From Magnetococcales bacterium WMHbinv6 (GTDB taxonomy: Bacteria > Pseudomonadota > Magnetococcia > Magnetococcales > Magnetaquicoccaceae), in assembly GCA_002753135.1 (NCBI GenBank), contig PDZV01000003.1:62001-126000 (forward strand): DNA of 64,000 nt, read 5' to 3'. Position 1 is the first letter of the stretch. Each line of letters begins with the position of its first letter. The translations under genes and the position numbers were made by a program. The notes below the pieces were generated by a model. The model did no database searches and was not told where the DNA came from. It was given only the letters and a program-made list of their open reading frames with translations. Shown here in pieces: positions 3,572 through 18,962 of the stretch.

Positions 3572-4309
3572 TCACTCTGGAAGCCTCTCTGATCCAGATT
3601 GCAGCGCCCGCCACGAATGGCAGGAGAGAGGCACCCTCTGCTGGCCGACGATCGCCAAGGCAGCCCGATACCCTTCCGGGGCCTGCAGGTCGAGCAACTG
3701 GATTGTCGAGGTCTGCGGCTCCGGCGCAAGCAGCACGGCAGGCGGTTGTTGTGGCGCGACCGTGACCACAAAGCGATGGCAATGGTGGGCAATCGTTGCC
3801 CCCCGGCATTTGATATAGGCCTCTTTGCGCACCCAGCAGGCCAAAAAGGCATCGTTGAGTTGCTCGCTGGGCAACCGACGGAGCGCGGCACACTCATCCG
3901 GATGAAAAAAGCGACAGGCCAAAGCCAATGATTGCTCCGCAGACCTTTGGCGTGACCGTTCCAGATCCACACCCAGCGCCCGGTGGCGGGCCACCGCCAG
4001 GTAAAACCAGCGACCGGAATGGCTCAGATTGAACTGCAGCGCCGCATGCGGCTCAGCCAGCAAAGGTTTGCCGTTTTCTGTGCGCTGCAGCAACAATTGG
4101 CTCGGCTCGACGGCGCAATAGCCTGCCAAAATCCGCCGCATCGTGGCACGCTGCCCCAGATAGAGCTGCCTCTGTTCGACAAAGGGGATGGATGAGGCCC
4201 GTTGCCACTCTTCCGCCGACAGCCATTGGCGCAACTCTGTTTCGTCGGCCTCTGCCAACGGCAATTGCGCCTGCCAGAGATGAACCTCGTCGTCATCCAG
4301 ATGAACCAT
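3572..4309 (-). CDS. 4'-phosphopantetheinyl transferase, Sfp/AcpT type
   Basis: A 245-residue enzyme that would move the phosphopantetheine arm from CoA onto a serine of carrier proteins. Family motifs are visible: the basic QRATMRRILAGY region, GKPLL near the middle, the FNLSHSGRWFYLAVA motif with the conserved His-Ser, GVDLERSRQR carrying the magnesium-binding Asp/Glu, and FFHPDEC followed by WVRKEAYIKCRG, the W-x-x-KEA motif with the catalytic Glu/Lys. The start MVHLDDDE at 4309 gives the family length; a longer upstream frame is only the overlap with the neighbouring gene. It overlaps the end of the large glycan gene by 17 bases, so the two are probably cotranscribed. The carrier-protein substrate is not visible in the window. 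Confidence 0.9.
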   Translation of the reverse strand: MVHLDDDEVHLWQAQLPLAEADETELRQWLSAEEWQRASSIPFVEQRQLYLGQRATMRRILAGYCAVEPSQLLLQRTENGKPLLAEPHAALQFNLSHSGRWFYLAVARHRALGVDLERSRQRSAEQSLALACRFFHPDECAALRRLPSEQLNDAFLACWVRKEAYIKCRGATIAHHCHRFVVTVAPQQPPAVLLAPEPQTSTIQLLDLQAPEGYRAALAIVGQQRVPLSCHSWRALQSGSERLPE

Positions 4310-6713
4310 TTTCCTCTCCCTTGCCCATACCAAACAGCTGTGTCGGTGCCAGCCAGCGCACGCCGGGAAACGAGCGACTGCACAGAAAAAGCTGTTCCAT
4401 GAAACGCCAGCCGTGCTGGTCCATGACCCGATGGTGGGTGAGAATGCCCAGCGGTTCATCCTGATGCAATTCGCCCAGACGCCGCTGGCGTAATTTGCTG
4501 ACCAGTCGTTCCACCAACCAGTCACTGCGCAACAGACGGGGTGGCGTGCGCGACCAATCGATCACATCCACATGGGCATTATAACGAATCACCCCCGCAA
4601 TCGCATGGCCATCGTGCGGCAACGGTCCATACTGGGAGAGGCCCTGCAAACCGCTCCGCTGCAGGCAAGAGAGATGCTCTTCGGCAAAATTGTTCCAGGG
4701 TGGGACAAATATTGGCAGAAAACGGGCACCAAACAGCTGCCGCATGCGGGCAAAACCGTGCGTCACATCGTCACACACCTGTTGCGCACTCCGTGCCGAG
4801 CCAAATTCACTCTGACTTTTGCCAGCCGGTTGGTAATTGTGATGCAAAAAACCGTGCTGACAAAAATAGAGGTGGGAGGCCTCCCGGCTCTCCTCTGCCA
4901 ATCGCTCGGCAAGCAACCCCGGAATCACCGCCAGCAAAACCGGAATGCGATACTGTTCCGCCAACTGCTGCAAGCGGCGAAAATTGGCCGACATGGCCAT
5001 CAAATCATCATCCCGCCACCACAGAGAACAGTTCAATCCTGCCTGCTGCCAGAGCTGCCACTCCTCCCGCAAGGGGGCAAACCATTGCTGCTGATCGGGC
5101 AAGGGCAACACCTGCAGCAAAGGCGGCAGTGCCACGTCCGCCAAGCGCCACACCCCCAGATAGCGCCCCTCCTCGTCTGGACCGTCGGCAAGAAGCTGCA
5201 ACGGTGGCGGCAAGGAAAAAGGGGGTGCCGTCAAATCCAAGCGACGCCATTGACCGGTTGTGCCTGGCCGGTTGCTGGCACCCGGATGGGTGGTGGCCAG
5301 CAAATAACGGGATTCACTCCGTTTGCACTGCTGCAACGCCTGCGCCGCTTGCGCCAGGGGCAACCAGTTGAGAACGTTACGGCAGAGAATGGCATCCATG
5401 CGCGGCAACGGATCATGACATATATCAGCCACCTTGAAGAGGTGGTGCGGACGATGGGCAAACAAAGTCTGATTGTTGGCAATCAATTCTGCCACCACAT
5501 CGACGCCCAGATAGAGATCCCAACAATCCCCCATCCATGCCAGCCAATTGCCATCGCCACACCCGGCATCCAACAGCGTGCGCAGGGTCAAGCGTCGACT
5601 GATTTGTTGCAATTCCCGGCGCACGGTTTTGCTCTTGCGCCATAAAGAGTCGTAACCAGAACGGGTTTCCCTGTCTCCCCAATGGGCAAAATGGTAGATT
5701 TCACTGAAAATTTTGCGGCACTCTTCCCGGCTTTCACTCAATTTTGCCGGCAGCGGAAACTGCCCGTCCAAGGCCCGCACGCCCACTTTTCTTCTTTGCA
5801 AATCGATATCGGCATAGCGCTCGTATTCTGCCAGGCTGCGCTCCACACCCAGCGCATAACTGTCCATCTCCACGATCACCTGCGGATCGCTGGATCGTTG
5901 CATCTCCAACAGATGGAGCCTGCGCTCCTGCGACAGTTTTTGCAGACGCAACCACTCTTCCGGATGGTCATCCCAGTGGCGCGCCCGCTCCTGCAAACCA
6001 TAATTGTGATAGAGCAAAATGGCATTGGGTACAAACATATCGTAGGCATGGGTCCACAGTCGCGCCGCCAGGGTCAACTCTTCGCCGTAAAAATAGAGAT
6101 GGGGATCATAAGGCACCTCACGCACCATGCTCCCTGCGGCAAAGATGAACGCTGCCGACAAAAAAGCACCGGGTCGGGGTGCAACAAGCGGCAACCCAGG
6201 ATCCATGGTACCGGAACGTTGCACCAGATTGCCGTCACTTTTAAACCGTTCGGCACGAATAAAGGTCAAGCCGGTCGCGATCCGTTCATCGGGTGGATGG
6301 TAGGGCGGCGGCAAGGTGGATAAAACCGGCTTGTGCGAGGGACACTGCTGCCAGATGCGGATCAACTGTTCATCCCAGGCGGGCACAAAACGGGTATGGC
6401 TGTCGATCTGCAGATAAAACGCTTCACCCTGAAAAAAACGGTTCTGTATCCAGTGTCGCGCCCAGCACGGCCCCCGACTGAGCGAGGCCACGACCACCTC
6501 AGCGCGAACTTGCCCGGCACGACAGGGTATCTCCGTATAGACTGCCCCATCCTGCTCCGGGTCAATCTGCCACAAGAGGCCGACGCTAATCCGCTCAGGA
6601 AACGCCGCTTTGGCAAACAGATCCATCAAGGTGGCGCTGCACTCCCGATCACGGTAACTGGCAATCGAAACAAAAACAGTCGCAGATTGCGCCAGAGTCA
6701 TCCCATCCCTCAT
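4293..6713 (-). CDS. Three-domain protein: GlcNAc-type glycosyltransferase, methyltransferase, polysaccharide-deacetylase-like
   Basis: An 806-residue protein. Residues about 1-285 look like the GlcNAc-transferase family first known from Skp1 glycosylation: FVSIASYRDREC at the N-terminus, FYLQIDSHTRFVPAWDEQL with the metal-binding D-S-H, GAFLSAAFIFA and PHLYFYGEELTLAARLWTHAYD. Residues about 340-500 form a class I SAM methyltransferase (LLDAGCGDGNWLAW near 380, then DAILCRNVLNWL). Residues about 550-800 resemble a polysaccharide deacetylase (NCSLWWRDDDLM near 565 with adjacent aspartates, FCQHGFLHHNY near 618, FVPPWNNF). No signal peptide is evident, so it probably acts in the cytoplasm on a nucleotide-linked or lipid-linked glycan or a protein. 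The domain assignments are from motif reading; the combined reaction is unknown. It ends overlapping the phosphopantetheinyl transferase gene. Confidence 0.8.
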   Translation of the reverse strand: MRDGMTLAQSATVFVSIASYRDRECSATLMDLFAKAAFPERISVGLLWQIDPEQDGAVYTEIPCRAGQVRAEVVVASLSRGPCWARHWIQNRFFQGEAFYLQIDSHTRFVPAWDEQLIRIWQQCPSHKPVLSTLPPPYHPPDERIATGLTFIRAERFKSDGNLVQRSGTMDPGLPLVAPRPGAFLSAAFIFAAGSMVREVPYDPHLYFYGEELTLAARLWTHAYDMFVPNAILLYHNYGLQERARHWDDHPEEWLRLQKLSQERRLHLLEMQRSSDPQVIVEMDSYALGVERSLAEYERYADIDLQRRKVGVRALDGQFPLPAKLSESREECRKIFSEIYHFAHWGDRETRSGYDSLWRKSKTVRRELQQISRRLTLRTLLDAGCGDGNWLAWMGDCWDLYLGVDVVAELIANNQTLFAHRPHHLFKVADICHDPLPRMDAILCRNVLNWLPLAQAAQALQQCKRSESRYLLATTHPGASNRPGTTGQWRRLDLTAPPFSLPPPLQLLADGPDEEGRYLGVWRLADVALPPLLQVLPLPDQQQWFAPLREEWQLWQQAGLNCSLWWRDDDLMAMSANFRRLQQLAEQYRIPVLLAVIPGLLAERLAEESREASHLYFCQHGFLHHNYQPAGKSQSEFGSARSAQQVCDDVTHGFARMRQLFGARFLPIFVPPWNNFAEEHLSCLQRSGLQGLSQYGPLPHDGHAIAGVIRYNAHVDVIDWSRTPPRLLRSDWLVERLVSKLRQRRLGELHQDEPLGILTHHRVMDQHGWRFMEQLFLCSRSFPGVRWLAPTQLFGMGKGEENGSSG

Positions 6714-6825: not shown

Positions 6826-7470
6826 ATGGAACAGACAGTGACCGACTCTTGCAACCTGGCATGGCAACTGTCGCAAGTCAGCCGAGCGACTCGGGAGCAA
6901 CGGCATGGCCATCCAGGGATGATTCTCTGGCTGACCGGTTTATCCGGTTCTGGCAAATCCACCTTGGCCTATGCGCTGGAAGCCACGCTGCATGCCCTGG
7001 GCGGCCATACCTTTGTGCTGGACGGCGACAATATCCGCCACGGCCTGTGCCGCGATTTAGGCTTTTCTGCCGCCGACCGCCAGGAAAACATTCGCCGTAT
7101 CGGCGAAGTGGCCCATCTGTTCGCCGAAGCTGGCCTGATCACCATCGCCGCCTTTATCTCACCTTTTCAGGCGGATCGCCAGTTGGCCCGCAGCCGGGCC
7201 GGCCAACACCATTTTGTCGAAATCTATTGCCGCTGCCCATTGGCCGTCTGTGAACAGCGGGATGTCAAAGGGTTGTACCAAAAAGCCCGCGCCGGTCTGA
7301 TCCGCGATTTTACCGGCATCTCTTCCCCTTACGAAGAGCCCACTCAAGCCGATATCATTGTCGATACCGCCACCCTTTCCATCGCCGCATCGGTCAATTA
7401 TATCATGCAGCAGATTCACCCTTTGCTGACGCTGTACCCCAATTCAGCAAAAAAAATCACAATCGCTTGA
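6826..7470 (+). CDS. cysC: Adenylylsulfate (APS) kinase
   Basis: A 214-residue kinase that phosphorylates adenosine 5'-phosphosulfate to PAPS. The P-loop is [12 protein letters not shown] (about residues 30-41), followed by [18 protein letters not shown], the APS-binding [19 protein letters not shown] motif, and [13 protein letters not shown] with the [12 protein letters not shown] lid. Length fits free-standing CysC. There is no CysN or CysD next to it, so sulfate activation genes must lie elsewhere; free-standing CysC can also serve sulfated-glycan synthesis, which would suit the neighbouring glycan gene, but that is inference. The gene is divergent from the glycan gene across an AT-rich 110-base spacer. 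Its last codons contain the -35 element of the following tRNA gene. Confidence 0.95.
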
Positions 7471-10269: not shown

Positions 10270-10417
10270 CCTCTGCCAATCCGCTACAACACCCCAATAC
10301 GGCGTTTGAACGAGCGTTTGATACAACAAGCCACAGGCGGCGGTGGCGGGATGGCTCTGCCGCTCTTTGCCTGCCGGATACGGATCCCGTTTTCGCAACG
10401 CCAGTCGGAGTCAAACG

Positions 10418-11932
10418 ATGGACCGCGCCACTCCTTACGACAAGGTGCCTTATACCAATAATGCGCATGCGAATACGCATATCGCCAATCTTTACACTTT
10501 GGGCCGCATCTTCGGCCTGACCCCCCCTGATTTTCAACGGTGCCGGGTCTTGGAATTGGGCTGTGGCCGTGGCGGCAATTTACTGCCCATGGCTTGGGAA
10601 TATCCGGAAAGCCAATTTTATGGCATCGATCTTTCCCAAGTGCAAATTGAAGATGCGCAACGGGATGCCGACGCGCTGCAACTGCACAATCTGCATTTCA
10701 AAAAAGAGTCCATCCTGGCGTTTGATGGCCAGCATGGTCCCTTCGATTATATTCTCTGCCACGGGGTCTATTCCTGGGTACCGGAACTGGTGCAAGAGAC
10801 CATTTTCCGCATCATCCAGGAGCATCTCTCCCCGAACGGTATCGCCTTGATCTCTTACAACACCTTGCCGGGCTGGTATTTTGTCCGCGCCCTGCGCGAT
10901 ATGATGCTCTATCAGGAGGCCCTTTTTCCGGAGGCCCATGATCGTTCCGGGCAGGCCCGTCTGTTGCTCTCATTCCTCAAAGAGCATGCCCAGGATCAAA
11001 ACATGCGCGAATTTGCCGCCCGAGAAGCACAAATTTTGACCGATCGACCGGATAATTATTTATTGCACGACCATTTGGGCGACGACAACCGCCCCTGCTA
11101 TTTCAGCGACTTTGTCGGCAGGGCGGCAGCGCACGGCCTGCAGTATCTGGGCGACACAATGGTCAAAATCATGTTTCTGCATAATTTTTCCGCTGAAGTT
11201 GCCGAACGGCTCAGCCTGTTGAATAATCAAATTCATCAAGAACAGTTTCTCGATTTTATTGCCAACCGGCGCTTTCGTTCGACCCTGTTGTGTCGTTCTG
11301 GCTCACCCATTCAGAACGCCCTGCAAGAGGTGGTGCAAACCTGTGCCGTCCGTCTGTTGATGGTTGCCCAACAACCCCCTTTGCAGGCGGGAGAGGCGAT
11401 TCCCGACTCCAGAGATTTTGTCAGCGCCGACGGATCCCTGCTGACCGTGGCCGATCCGTTGACCATCGCCCTGTTTGATACCCTGGCGCAAAACAACCAG
11501 AAACCGCTCCCGGTGGCGGAACTGCTCCACATGCTGCGTGCCCGCTTCGCCATCGGCGATGCGGAGGGTATCCACCATATTCTGCTCAACGATGGCATCC
11601 GCCTGTTTACCGCCGGTCTGTTGACCTTTCATGCCGACGCAGGTCGCTACACTCTCACCCCCGGTGATCAGCCACAAGCGTTGCCGGTGGCCCGCCATCA
11701 AGGCCAAGAGAGTCTGCGGGTGGTCAACGGGCGACACCAGATGGTCGAGTTGACCCCCTGGGAGGCGGCTTTGTTGCAAGAGATGGATGGCCAGACCCCC
11801 TGGCAGACCATTGTGGAGCGGATGCAGGAAAAACAACGCCACAGCCAGGCAAGCGACGAAGCGGACACTGCAACGATCGACTGGCAGGCCATGCGGCACA
11901 AATTGGCCCGGGAGGCCCTGCTGCTTGCTTGA
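10418..11932 (+). CDS. Class I SAM methyltransferase with methyltransferase regulatory domain
   Basis: A 504-residue protein. Residues about 35-190 are a SAM-dependent methyltransferase: motif I VLELGCGRGGNLLPMA, motif II FYGIDLS, then DYILCHGVYSWV and a post-I LSPNGIALISYNTLPGW. Residues about 210-330 fit the regulatory domain seen after this catalytic type (DHLGDDNRPCYFSDFVGRAAAHGLQYLGD), and the C-terminal 170 residues form a further winged-helix-like or helical segment (ELTPWEAALLQEMDGQTPWQTIVERM). The family is often found next to surface-polysaccharide or lipid genes but its substrate is unclear. Start MDRATPYDKVPY at 10418 has CGGAG eight bases upstream; a longer in-frame extension back to 10343 looks non-coding. 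Convergent with the tRNA-Leu(UAA) gene. Confidence 0.82.
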   Translation: MDRATPYDKVPYTNNAHANTHIANLYTLGRIFGLTPPDFQRCRVLELGCGRGGNLLPMAWEYPESQFYGIDLSQVQIEDAQRDADALQLHNLHFKKESILAFDGQHGPFDYILCHGVYSWVPELVQETIFRIIQEHLSPNGIALISYNTLPGWYFVRALRDMMLYQEALFPEAHDRSGQARLLLSFLKEHAQDQNMREFAAREAQILTDRPDNYLLHDHLGDDNRPCYFSDFVGRAAAHGLQYLGDTMVKIMFLHNFSAEVAERLSLLNNQIHQEQFLDFIANRRFRSTLLCRSGSPIQNALQEVVQTCAVRLLMVAQQPPLQAGEAIPDSRDFVSADGSLLTVADPLTIALFDTLAQNNQKPLPVAELLHMLRARFAIGDAEGIHHILLNDGIRLFTAGLLTFHADAGRYTLTPGDQPQALPVARHQGQESLRVVNGRHQMVELTPWEAALLQEMDGQTPWQTIVERMQEKQRHSQASDEADTATIDWQAMRHKLAREALLLA

Positions 11933-15333: not shown

Positions 15334-18300
15334 TCACAAGCGTGCGGCCAGACGAAACCCAACATTAAGATCGAGTTCTCCGGCACGGCACCACCTAAAG
15401 CGACAGGAAGAGAGAAGGGCATCATCGCTACTACCCCAGGACCCGCCAAGCAACACTAACACGGTCTCTCTTTTCATGTCTTCAGGATCCAGATGTGTGC
15501 CTGTATTTTTATCGGTTGTGTAAAGATTTCGCTGCCACTCCCAAACATTACCTGCTAGATCGCAATGGCCAAAGGGGCCATCCCCGGCTGGATAAAGTCC
15601 CACCGGGGTAGGTGAACCAATTCTCTTGGCAAAATTGGCCAACTCCGGGGCAGGCCTTTCATTACCCCAGGGATATTTTCCTTTGTTTGCCTTGGTCCAG
15701 AGAAGCTCATCAGGCAAACGGATCTCCATCTTTTTCTGTTCACTCAACCACCGGCAGTAGGCCATCGCCTCAAACCAGGAAACAGCTACAACAGGACGGT
15801 TGGGATAAAGAAGTTGCTCACCCCAGCTACTAGGATTCTGCCAACCTTGCGAAACCACCTCATCCCAACCCGCCTCATCCCACCAGCGGGGTTCCTGATA
15901 ACCCCCTTCCTCCACAAAGTGTTGGTACTCGGCCACAGTGACCAGATATTTGCCCAACTGCCAACCCGTGCCGGGAATTTCAATCAGGTTGAGTTGGGAG
16001 AGGCGGGGATCCCCTCCCTGTCCCAGGGCTTCCGCCGCCTCGATACGAGTGGCAATGGCAACCTGAGCGGCCCCCTCTTTACTGAAGATGTCCATGACCC
16101 GCTGCAAGAGTTGTCGGTAGACCGCATCAATCTCCGCTGGTGGTCGGTACTGATAGGCGGTCATGGGTTCCAACAAGCGGCCCATAATGCCAGCAACGCG
16201 CGCATCTTCGGCCAGGGTGGGATCATTGCCACGGAGTGCCAGCACCCGTTGTAACAGGCGGTCCACCCGGAGTCCTCCGCCTTCATCAAACAGGGAGCCG
16301 GGTAACAGGGCCACGCTCTCCCGCCATTGGGCATCGGTCAAATGTTCCCGGACCACGGGCCACCACTCTTCCCCACCCTCCTCCCCATCTCCCAGCCAGG
16401 CCAGCGCCTGGCTGGCCAGATACTCCTGGAAGGTCAGATGCCAGAATTTCAGCTTTTTGTCCCCCAACTCCTCGACAATGCCACTGCCCAGACACTCAAA
16501 GCGCAGCCACTCCCGTCCCAGGCGCAACCGCTCCGCTTTGCTGCGCAGATGCTGAAAATAGCGTCCGACCAGAGGTTCCACCGCCTCTGCCCCCTCTTGC
16601 ACATCGAACACCGCCCGCTTGCTGCCCCTCATCATGGCCAGGGCCAGAGCGGCAAAAGCCTCTTGGGCAAAGCGATCTGGATAACCCGCCTGGTCGCGCA
16701 ACGCCGAGCGGGCGGCAATGAGCCAGCGCAGCACCGCTTGATAGACCCGCCCTCGCCCCTCCGGCAATTTGCCCTCATTCCAATGCACCACACACAGGCA
16801 GGTCAGCATCACCGGATTGGCCGCCAGGCGTCGAATGGCCGGTTTTTCCACAATGGCCTGGAGGAGTATCTGTTGATGGTCCGGCTTGTCCTGCGCATGC
16901 AGGGCTGTCACCCAGCGGCTGATAAATTCCCTGATCTCCTCCTGGCCAAAGGGGTCGATCACCACAGAATGAAACCCCAACTCCTTGATACGACCCACCC
17001 CGAAGGGTCGGCTGGTGATCACCACCTGGCTTTTCGACCAATGACGGAGGGCATCCTGGACAATAGCCAACACCCTCTCCCGGATGCCCTCGTCCGCCAC
17101 CTCGTCCAGGCCATCCAGCAACAGCATGGCCTCTCCCTCTTCCAACTGGCGCGTCCACTCATCGCGCCAGGCAGGGTCAGCATTGGGAGTGCGATCCAGC
17201 AGGTCGAGCAAACGGCGGCGATCATCGGTAAAGGGCGGTTTGTCGTCAGCCAGCAAGGCCGTCAATTCCGAAAGACGGAGAAAAAGGGGAATCCGTGCGC
17301 TTTCCGAACAGGGCAAGCCCAGATAGCGATGACGCCAGCAGGAACCATCGGCACAGGGTAGCGCCAGATGATCCTTGGCCAGCATGGCGGCCACCAGCTT
17401 CAGAAAGGTGGTCTTGCCCGCCCCCGGTTGGCCTTCAATCAGCAACCGCCGGTGATGGGGCAAGAGTTCGGCCAGGGAGAGCGCCTTGTTGTCACGCCGG
17501 TCACTGCTATGCAACGGGGTGTACAACGTTTCAATGTCATACAACCCCGCCTCCCTGCTCCGTCCCGCCCCGGAACTGATGCCACGAATTGCCAGCTTGC
17601 CGGTGCGATCAAGCAGACTTTGCAGCCAGGGAGTCAAATCCCGGACGGGGGAAGAGGGTTTTGTGGTTGTGGATCGAATCAGCAAACCGGTACGGTCGTC
17701 GTGCTTTTCATAGCGGGTATCCCGATCAAAGGCCCATTGACCGCCGCCTCGCTCCACCCGTTTCATGGGCCAAATGCGAATTTCACCACCTTGGCTCAAG
17801 CTCCCCCACTGGTAGCCCATACTGCGACTCTCCTGCGCCGTGCCATACTGTTCCAACCCGAACAGGGAGGGAGCCATAAGGGTGCAGCGCCCCACCGCAC
17901 CAAAAGGACTGAACAATTCGCTGCTGCCGGTATGCGCATGGCCCACCAGGGCCGCCTGGAAACGTTCCGGGTGGTAAATGGTTTCCAGATATTTTTTCTG
18001 GCACTCTGTGGAAAACCACGGCAGGGGATGGTGCATCATCAACAATCTGGCGCTGCCATCCAGGGAGTTGTCTGGCAAAACCTCTTGCAACTGGCGGGGC
18101 AACAGTTCCAGTTTGCCCTCAAAATCACCCTGCTGATAGTGCATCCAGGCTGAGTTGAGCCCCACTATCGTCAGGGGAACCTTTCGAGGACGGTTCACAG
18201 TGACGGCCAGATCGCCGGGAAAACGGGAGGTACGGCAGGCAGCACCCAAAGCCGGTTTGATGCTTTGCTCAAACCACTCCAGATAGTTTTTGAACGGGGC

Positions 18301-18717
18301 CTGAAAGGGAGTGGGAAGAGGATTTTCCCAAATTTTCTTTTCCAGTCTGGGCAGATTTTTGCTCCAGACGGAGGTATCCAACATGTCCGACAGGAGTTGC
18401 AACTCATCATTCAGTGTCTCATTCCTGTCCAGATCGTGATTGCCAGGCACAGGAATGACCAGAGGATCCAGATCACCGGGTGATTTTTTCACCCATTTGC
18501 GCAGCTCTGTGAGAAATTGGTCGAATTGTCCATACTCCTCCTTCCGCCCCTGCCAGGCCAGATCGCCACTGATCAAAATCATATCCGGCGTCCCCAACCG
18601 TTTTGCCATCTCGCGCACACTGGCGGCAAACTCTTGATGGACCTGCCACCACAGCTCATTTCCCCGGCAGCCCATGTGAATGTCGGAAATATGCAACCAG
18701 TGGACAGGATCAGCCAT
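15334..18717 (-). CDS. Metallophosphoesterase-NACHT-FGE/C-type-lectin fold protein (candidate defence or signalling STAND NTPase)
   Basis: An 1127-residue protein with three parts. Residues 1-320 are a calcineurin-like phosphoesterase with all metal motifs: HISDIH (Asp12, His14), ISGDLAW (Asp52), VPGNHD (Asn93, His94), MMHHPLPW (His229/230) and VGHAHTG (His260, His262). Residues about 420-730 are a NACHT NTPase: Walker A EGQPGAGKTT (Lys435) and MLLLDGLDEV (Asp535, Asp538, Glu539), followed by ITSRPFG and a helical region to about 880. Residues about 890-1127 are a formylglycine-generating-enzyme/C-type-lectin fold, with YPWGNE, CDLAGNVWEW, GGSWG and terminal GFRLAARL; Cys1105 and Cys1110 form a C-x4-C pair as in genuine FGE. 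This effector-STAND-sensor layout is that of bacterial immune NTPases. Start MADPVHW at 18717 follows GGAGA. It stands alone between housekeeping genes. Confidence 0.85.
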   Translation of the reverse strand: MADPVHWLHISDIHMGCRGNELWWQVHQEFAASVREMAKRLGTPDMILISGDLAWQGRKEEYGQFDQFLTELRKWVKKSPGDLDPLVIPVPGNHDLDRNETLNDELQLLSDMLDTSVWSKNLPRLEKKIWENPLPTPFQAPFKNYLEWFEQSIKPALGAACRTSRFPGDLAVTVNRPRKVPLTIVGLNSAWMHYQQGDFEGKLELLPRQLQEVLPDNSLDGSARLLMMHHPLPWFSTECQKKYLETIYHPERFQAALVGHAHTGSSELFSPFGAVGRCTLMAPSLFGLEQYGTAQESRSMGYQWGSLSQGGEIRIWPMKRVERGGGQWAFDRDTRYEKHDDRTGLLIRSTTTKPSSPVRDLTPWLQSLLDRTGKLAIRGISSGAGRSREAGLYDIETLYTPLHSSDRRDNKALSLAELLPHHRRLLIEGQPGAGKTTFLKLVAAMLAKDHLALPCADGSCWRHRYLGLPCSESARIPLFLRLSELTALLADDKPPFTDDRRRLLDLLDRTPNADPAWRDEWTRQLEEGEAMLLLDGLDEVADEGIRERVLAIVQDALRHWSKSQVVITSRPFGVGRIKELGFHSVVIDPFGQEEIREFISRWVTALHAQDKPDHQQILLQAIVEKPAIRRLAANPVMLTCLCVVHWNEGKLPEGRGRVYQAVLRWLIAARSALRDQAGYPDRFAQEAFAALALAMMRGSKRAVFDVQEGAEAVEPLVGRYFQHLRSKAERLRLGREWLRFECLGSGIVEELGDKKLKFWHLTFQEYLASQALAWLGDGEEGGEEWWPVVREHLTDAQWRESVALLPGSLFDEGGGLRVDRLLQRVLALRGNDPTLAEDARVAGIMGRLLEPMTAYQYRPPAEIDAVYRQLLQRVMDIFSKEGAAQVAIATRIEAAEALGQGGDPRLSQLNLIEIPGTGWQLGKYLVTVAEYQHFVEEGGYQEPRWWDEAGWDEVVSQGWQNPSSWGEQLLYPNRPVVAVSWFEAMAYCRWLSEQKKMEIRLPDELLWTKANKGKYPWGNERPAPELANFAKRIGSPTPVGLYPAGDGPFGHCDLAGNVWEWQRNLYTTDKNTGTHLDPEDMKRETVLVLLGGSWGSSDDALLSSCRFRWCRAGELDLNVGFRLAARL

Positions 18718-18962
18718 AAGAAGTCTCCGGCAAAATATCTGGGTGTATGACGGTGTTTTGCAAACATCATGAAGCATAATCCAGCAGCAAGAAGCGTGCA
18801 AGATGGTGCAAAAAGAAAAATTATTATTCTTGTGACAAAGTTTGCTCAATCAGGAATCAGGGCTGACTTAGCATCAGCAGCGTGCTATCCTTTTTCGGTC
18901 CGGGAGAAAAACAGCAAAAGCGGGCGCTCCGTTTTTGCCCGGTATTTTTTTTGTATTTAGGC

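Follow-up and report, generated by a model that had tools for sequence, protein, structure and literature searches.

The DNA analysed here, which we call the window, is a stretch of 64,000 nucleotides from Magnetococcales bacterium WMHbinv6. At 4293..6713 on the minus strand it holds a gene, taken from the open reading frame listing, supported by Pfam and conserved in relatives, that starts with ATG and encodes a protein of 806 aa. The chain consists, in this order, of a GT60 glycosyltransferase (GT), a class I SAM-dependent methyltransferase (MT) and a CE4/NodB-fold deacetylase-like domain (PDA). The reading direction is from 6713 to 4293 (complement 4293..6713), and the plus strand has four stops over the same stretch in the frame tested. 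The gene order is clpA, clpS, a phosphopantetheinyl transferase (PPTase) gene and the fusion gene, all on the minus strand, followed by cysC on the plus strand and by mutM. With these neighbours the fusion gene lies outside any secretion operon, and no polysaccharide cluster adjoins it.

Two further genomes carry the same fusion without internal stops, as a protein of 825 aa in Magnetococcales bacterium isolate YD0425bin7 (G006; contig PDZU01000055.1) and of 803 aa in G004, both ~67% identical to the 806-aa protein over the full length. Identity among the fusions is 74–76% in GT, 68–71% in MT and 59–61% in PDA, the least conserved of the three domains. The corresponding dN/dS values are 0.09–0.15, 0.11–0.18 and 0.18–0.25, figures that are approximate because dS is high (1.2–2.3). 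Judged from these alignments, every domain of the fusion is under purifying selection. Because three MAGs carry this fusion as an open frame, with dN/dS of 0.09–0.25 per domain, an assembly or frameshift artefact is ruled out, and motif conservation together with dN/dS also rules out a degraded domain or a decayed gene. The earlier note had named two findings that would tell against its reading, the loss of catalytic residues in one domain and a fused pseudo-enzyme. Neither applies: the invariant motif residues are kept, and the fusion persists under purifying selection in three genomes. The earlier description of the protein as signal-less also holds, as neither a signal peptide nor a transmembrane segment was seen in the 806 residues and the best 19-residue Kyte-Doolittle mean of the whole protein, located inside the GT domain, is 1.42. 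The protein is predicted to be soluble and cytoplasmic in character. An NCBIfam search gave it no specific name.

The downstream neighbour is an Sfp/HetI-type PPTase recognised by family search (3572..4309, minus), and the divergent neighbour is the adenylylsulfate kinase-like gene cysC (6826..7470, plus; named from sequence only). The PPTase reading frame as listed, with its start at 4525, begins too far upstream; homology sets in at residue ~70–76, and the start is probably residue 73, at position 4309. With this start, the PPTase gene shares ~17 bases with the fusion gene. It is the downstream neighbour in each of the three fusion genomes, an arrangement in keeping with the earlier suggestion that the PPTase could supply a carrier protein to the enzyme. 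We now consider this suggestion highly improbable. In three sister genomes (G001, G003, G005), PPTase and cysC are divergent and directly adjacent, and the fusion gene is absent from the site that has cysC as its other edge. The fusion gene must therefore have been gained in, or lost from, the spacer between PPTase and cysC, and the PPTase is no specific companion of the fusion. Nor was any gene next to the fusion gene recognised as encoding a carrier protein. The survey of genome context thus removes the PPTase as a dedicated partner, and it is not counted in the function discussed below.

Two other genes of the window may be recorded. A 1171-aa open reading frame at 15334-18849 (minus) combines calcineurin-like phosphoesterase, NACHT and FGE-sulfatase domains, has a partial PADLOC match to PDC-S60 and is a candidate STAND-type defence or signalling protein. 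The 529-aa methyltransferase at 10343-11932 is similar to protein lysine methyltransferases; it has a MethyTransf_Reg domain and a C-terminal winged helix domain of PKMT type.

Motifs and predicted folds of the three domains

The GT60 domain, of GT-A fold, covers residues ~12–322 (5748..6680, minus) and matches PF11397 (GlcNAc) at 1.4e-70, with 239 bits against a curated cut-off of 21. In the full-length AF2 model, pLDDT is mostly >90 over residues 11–320. Foldseek places human GalNAc-T2 and other GT27 polypeptide transferases as the best PDB matches of the modelled domain (best E 2.4e-10), and a sequence-profile search of the PDB with the same domain gave chance matches only. The DxH metal motif typical of GT60 and GT27 is present as D104-S-H106 (6396..6404, minus). 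Its D and H are invariant in 30 GT60 homologues, as are Q102, R108, F109, W113, D114 and G210, and E211/E212 and H236 are nearly so. GT27 and GT60 group together, both having DxH in place of DxD and both being involved in polypeptide O-glycosylation (PMC7185993), and the characterised GT60 enzymes are polypeptide alpha-GlcNAc-transferases (PMC6939170). By family match, DxH motif and predicted GT27-like GT-A fold, the domain looks active, with the motifs of an intact enzyme.

The MT domain (residues ~330–528; 5130..5726, minus) is supported by Pfam and by a profile match to the PDB. Four overlapping Pfam families, Methyltransf_23, 25, 11 and 12, match residues ~363–475 at ~6e-9 to 6e-8, all over cut-off, and hmmsearch against the PDB finds phosphoethanolamine N-methyltransferases at 7.6e-9, a match that indicates the superfamily only. 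SAM motif I reads DAGCGD (residues 382–387; 5553..5570, minus), and D382, C385, G386, D387 and D405, the last being the acidic residue of motif II, are invariant in 29 MT sequences. The MT region is poorly modelled in the full-length AF2 prediction, and we therefore do not argue for any arrangement of the domains. A weak PADLOC match to mad2 (1e-4) covers the generic MT fold only and was disregarded.

The PDA domain (residues ~548–793; 4335..5072, minus) rests on the alignment of homologues, AF2 and Foldseek. DUF2334 matches residues 576–693 under its cut-off (E 0.003, 21 bits versus 26), weak Polysacc_deac_1 matches were confined to other sequences of the alignment, and none of the Pfam and NCBIfam models tried gave a curated match to the subfamily over cut-off. 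Likewise, searches of PDB, Pfam and NCBIfam found neither a solved structure nor a named family model for it, and a PDB sequence-profile search gave chance matches only. Nevertheless, 28 homologues at 28–60% identity have one invariant motif set in common: RDDD (residues 567–570; 5004..5015), HGFLHHN with the HxxxH metal ligands (620–626; 4836..4856), PPWN (671–674; 4692..4703), HVDVIDW (714–720; 4554..4574) and LTHH (758–761; 4431..4442), all on the minus strand. We take RDDD, HxxxH, PPWN, DxxDW and LTHH to be CE4 motifs 1–5, equated by pattern rather than by superposition; on this assignment, the Asp-His-His metal site and all five motifs are conserved. Invariant in 29 PDA sequences are W565, R567, D568–D570, H620, G621, H624, E636, P671–N674, D716 and H760/H761, and W720 is conserved in at least 90%. 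A search of viral contigs for a deeper alignment added two contigs only. The PDA part of the full-length AF2 model is poor; refolded alone, from four sequences only, the domain reached a pTM of 0.82, and nearly all of the best 50 PDB matches to this model in Foldseek belong to the CE4 superfamily, with peptidoglycan deacetylases, chitin deacetylases and ArnD among these esterases and deacetylases. On conserved motifs and predicted fold, we conclude that the C-terminal domain is a real CE4-like domain despite its sub-threshold Pfam match.

Each domain thus keeps all motifs conserved in its family, so that all three look active, and the three domain types named earlier (glycosyltransferase, methyltransferase, deacetylase-like) are all borne out. 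HMM confirmation, proposed then for each domain, was obtained for PF11397 and the MT families; with DUF2334 under cut-off, PDA is backed by alignment and AF2 instead.

Distribution, origin and the setting of relatives

Didomain GT60-MT proteins of ~520–550 aa are present across Magnetococcales, and PF11397 is otherwise rare in the phylum sample, occurring in four genomes outside the order. The GT60-MT-PDA fusion was found in three of the seven genomes examined of the genus and nowhere else in the class, where PDA does not occur other than at the C-terminal end of this fusion (3 of 48 genomes, from a single genus). Elsewhere in the phylum PDA is scattered, mostly as stand-alone proteins of ~250 aa without a signal peptide. 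In a GT60-MT tree, the three fusions form one clade (support 100/100) close to the sister genus's single-copy didomain protein (86/83) but away from the own-genome paralogue. They also form one clade in a CE4 tree, where their branch is long and no donor stands out, and GC content gives the gene no foreign mark. Most simply, these trees suggest a single gain of the CE4-like domain by a didomain GT60-MT protein, in an ancestor that three of the seven genus genomes share. The earlier note had called the domain combination unusual. This is true of the deacetylase graft, which is rare, whereas the GT60-MT pairing is standard in Magnetococcales; the architecture is new, its parts are known.

The relatives of the fusion are often found near secretion genes. 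The GT60-MT paralogue of the same genome (526 aa; G000:C46:176166-177734) is embedded in a type I secretion operon whose gene set is conserved through the genus; its neighbours (G000:C46:167000-186900) encode TolC/OEP-SPOR, a pair of HlyD proteins, a LuxR-AAA regulator, a kinase-FGE protein and a 1312-aa protein that contains two ABC modules. The didomain genes of G001, G003, G004, G005 and G006 are likewise flanked by most of these genes, so that all six didomain loci of the genus, the paralogue included, lie among HlyD/ABC/TolC genes. At least part of the set is found at four further didomain loci (G015, G018, G024, G025), and a type I secretion operon is a frequent setting of GT60-MT genes across the order. 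The didomain gene of other genera lies next to a gene for a secreted protein (cluster c3) or for an ALTTAQ/CBM5_12/S74 repeat protein. Because the fusion gene is not in a secretion operon, its link to secretion comes from the paralogue and these relatives.

Several candidate acceptors were noted in these settings. A secreted protein of ~400 aa without a Pfam match lies beside GT60-MT genes in ~10 Magnetococcales genomes (e.g., L041:10084-11358:+, L049:8094-9344:+) and may be an acceptor or partner; a search, run without a positive control, found no homologue of it in the genus of the fusion. Proteins of ~970–990 aa one or two genes from GT60-MT (L041:4416-7331:-, L062:3720-6683:-) are further candidates, and the L041 copy has ALTTAQ repeat, CBM5_12 and Peptidase_S74 domains. 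The genome of the fusion itself holds very large RTX-repeat open frames of 3281–7246 aa (G000:C16, C26, C50, C76), probable substrates of type I secretion.

Outside the order, bacterial GT60 domains occur fused to 2OG-Fe(II) oxygenases, and the combination is seen in both domain orders (L138:6045-8672:- in G326, L052:8107-9894:- in G053), once also with TTL/ATP-grasp. These fusions look like the prolyl hydroxylase/Gnt1 pair of protists joined in a single chain. A hydroxyproline route served by an oxygenase of the same genome was considered for the present protein, but a search limited to PF13640 (2OG-Fe(II) oxygenase) had no match there, and Ser/Thr is therefore tentatively preferred as the acceptor. 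GT60 is also frequent in IMG/VR viral contigs (L149-L228), with 352 confirmed matches from one scan; the genes often stand as tandem pairs, and carbamoyltransferase genes, along with some for capsid or tail proteins, lie in their vicinity. The CE4-like domain, for its part, recurs C-terminal to GT28-C-like glycosyltransferases (L060:6125-8923:+ in G071, L139:7216-9078:- in G172).

Proposed function and its alternatives

We tentatively propose, at somewhat less than even confidence, a cytoplasmic enzyme that places a GlcNAc-like sugar onto an exported protein, where the sugar is O-methylated and probably de-N-acetylated to a putative methylated glucosamine. The GT60 domain would take GlcNAc, or a sugar like it, from a UDP donor and attach it with retention (alpha linkage) to a side-chain hydroxyl of the polypeptide, probably on Ser/Thr, before export. 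The tethered MT would then cap the added sugar by O-methylation, and removal of the N-acetyl group by the CE4-like domain would leave methylated glucosamine on the protein. The proposal builds directly on the fusion itself, the predicted GT60 and CE4 folds, the integrity of the motifs, purifying selection and the cytoplasmic character. The donor sugar, the polypeptide acceptor, the linkage, the order of the steps and the placing of methyl and acetyl groups on the same sugar are inferred. In its full form, in which a single chain starts protein O-glycosylation through GT60 and then turns the attached sugar into a methylated, de-N-acetylated glucosamine, the proposal is doubtful. We know of no precedent for the positively charged, capped protein glycan that would result.

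The earlier note had envisaged a glycan-modifying machine. Its sugar transfer, methylation and deacetylation domains stand, but what is known of the family, together with the fold, makes a polypeptide a likelier acceptor than a free glycan. An enzyme for building or capping a polysaccharide of the surface or a lipid-linked glycan, in which GT60 would add HexNAc to the growing chain and the other two domains would tailor it, seems rather unlikely to us, although the stand-alone PDA relatives in other proteobacteria do lie in exopolysaccharide-type loci with GT4-type and GT28-C-like transferases and UDP-glucose/GDP-mannose dehydrogenase, PDA is twice fused to GT28-C-like transferases, and phage GT60 genes are near carbamoyltransferases and other glycan genes. 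Against these contexts stand the characterised GT60 enzymes, which act on polypeptides, a modelled GT fold nearest to polypeptide transferases, and a fusion gene without an adjacent polysaccharide cluster. By analogy with those enzymes and from the contexts of the GT60-MT relatives, we favour an exported polypeptide; the oxygenase fusions of other bacterial GT60 domains and the large RTX-repeat frames of the same genome speak for it as well.

A different reservation concerns the third domain, which might hydrolyse a different group (O-acetyl, formyl), for instance as an esterase, or serve as a binding module with its metal site preserved, with GT60 and MT doing the main work. The CE4 fold includes acetylxylan esterases and the deformylase ArnD, the PDA subfamily falls under the cut-off of every model tried, and PDA is less conserved than GT among the fusions. 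However, none of the three fusions has lost an invariant motif residue, purifying selection is evident, and we judge this reading quite improbable.

GT60 is common in Magnetococcales and phages, and in the fusion it is physically tied to two tailoring activities, which makes its product predictable. Magnetotactic cocci and their relatives have a giant glycosylated flagellar-sheath protein and glycosylated flagellins (PMC7175107). If the acceptor is an exported protein, the fusion would be a concrete enzyme for glycosylating large surface proteins in these bacteria.

Comparison with known systems

In the open literature searched, we came across no paper about GT60 enzymes of bacteria, and nothing nearer to the GT60-MT-PDA architecture than the chlorovirus protein A064R. 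Among polypeptide transferases, the closest solved structures to the modelled GT are the GT27 GalNAc-transferases, which are retaining and likewise have DxH; however, sequence identity is ~15%, and the GT of the fusion lacks a lectin domain, is bacterial and is cytoplasmic. Gnt1, the Skp1 polypeptide alpha-GlcNAc-transferase (CAZy GT60) of Dictyostelium and Toxoplasma, belongs to the same family, PF11397, has DxH and is cytoplasmic, and a protein acceptor is presumed for the fusion as well. Gnt1 needs hydroxyproline made by a 2OG oxygenase, whereas the genome of the fusion has no PF13640 match, and methyltransferase and deacetylase domains are attached to the fusion, unlike in Gnt1. With CE4/NodB polysaccharide deacetylases, PDA has the fold and five motif positions in common, but it is under model cut-offs, has no signal peptide and is fused to GT-MT. 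The didomain GT60-MT proteins of Magnetococcales (~526 aa, the paralogue included) are ~46–54% identical over GT-MT; they have no deacetylase and, unlike the fusion, are often encoded next to genes of type I secretion or of a secreted protein. In A064R of chlorovirus PBCV-1, a GT-GT-methyltransferase, the third domain methylates the sugar added by the second, on a glycoprotein (PMC9614988). This protein differs in its GT families, its sugar (rhamnose), its site at an N-glycan terminus and its lack of a deacetylase. As one chain with sugar transfer and SAM-dependent methylation, it nonetheless offers an experimental parallel, by analogy, for the GT-MT logic of the fusion.
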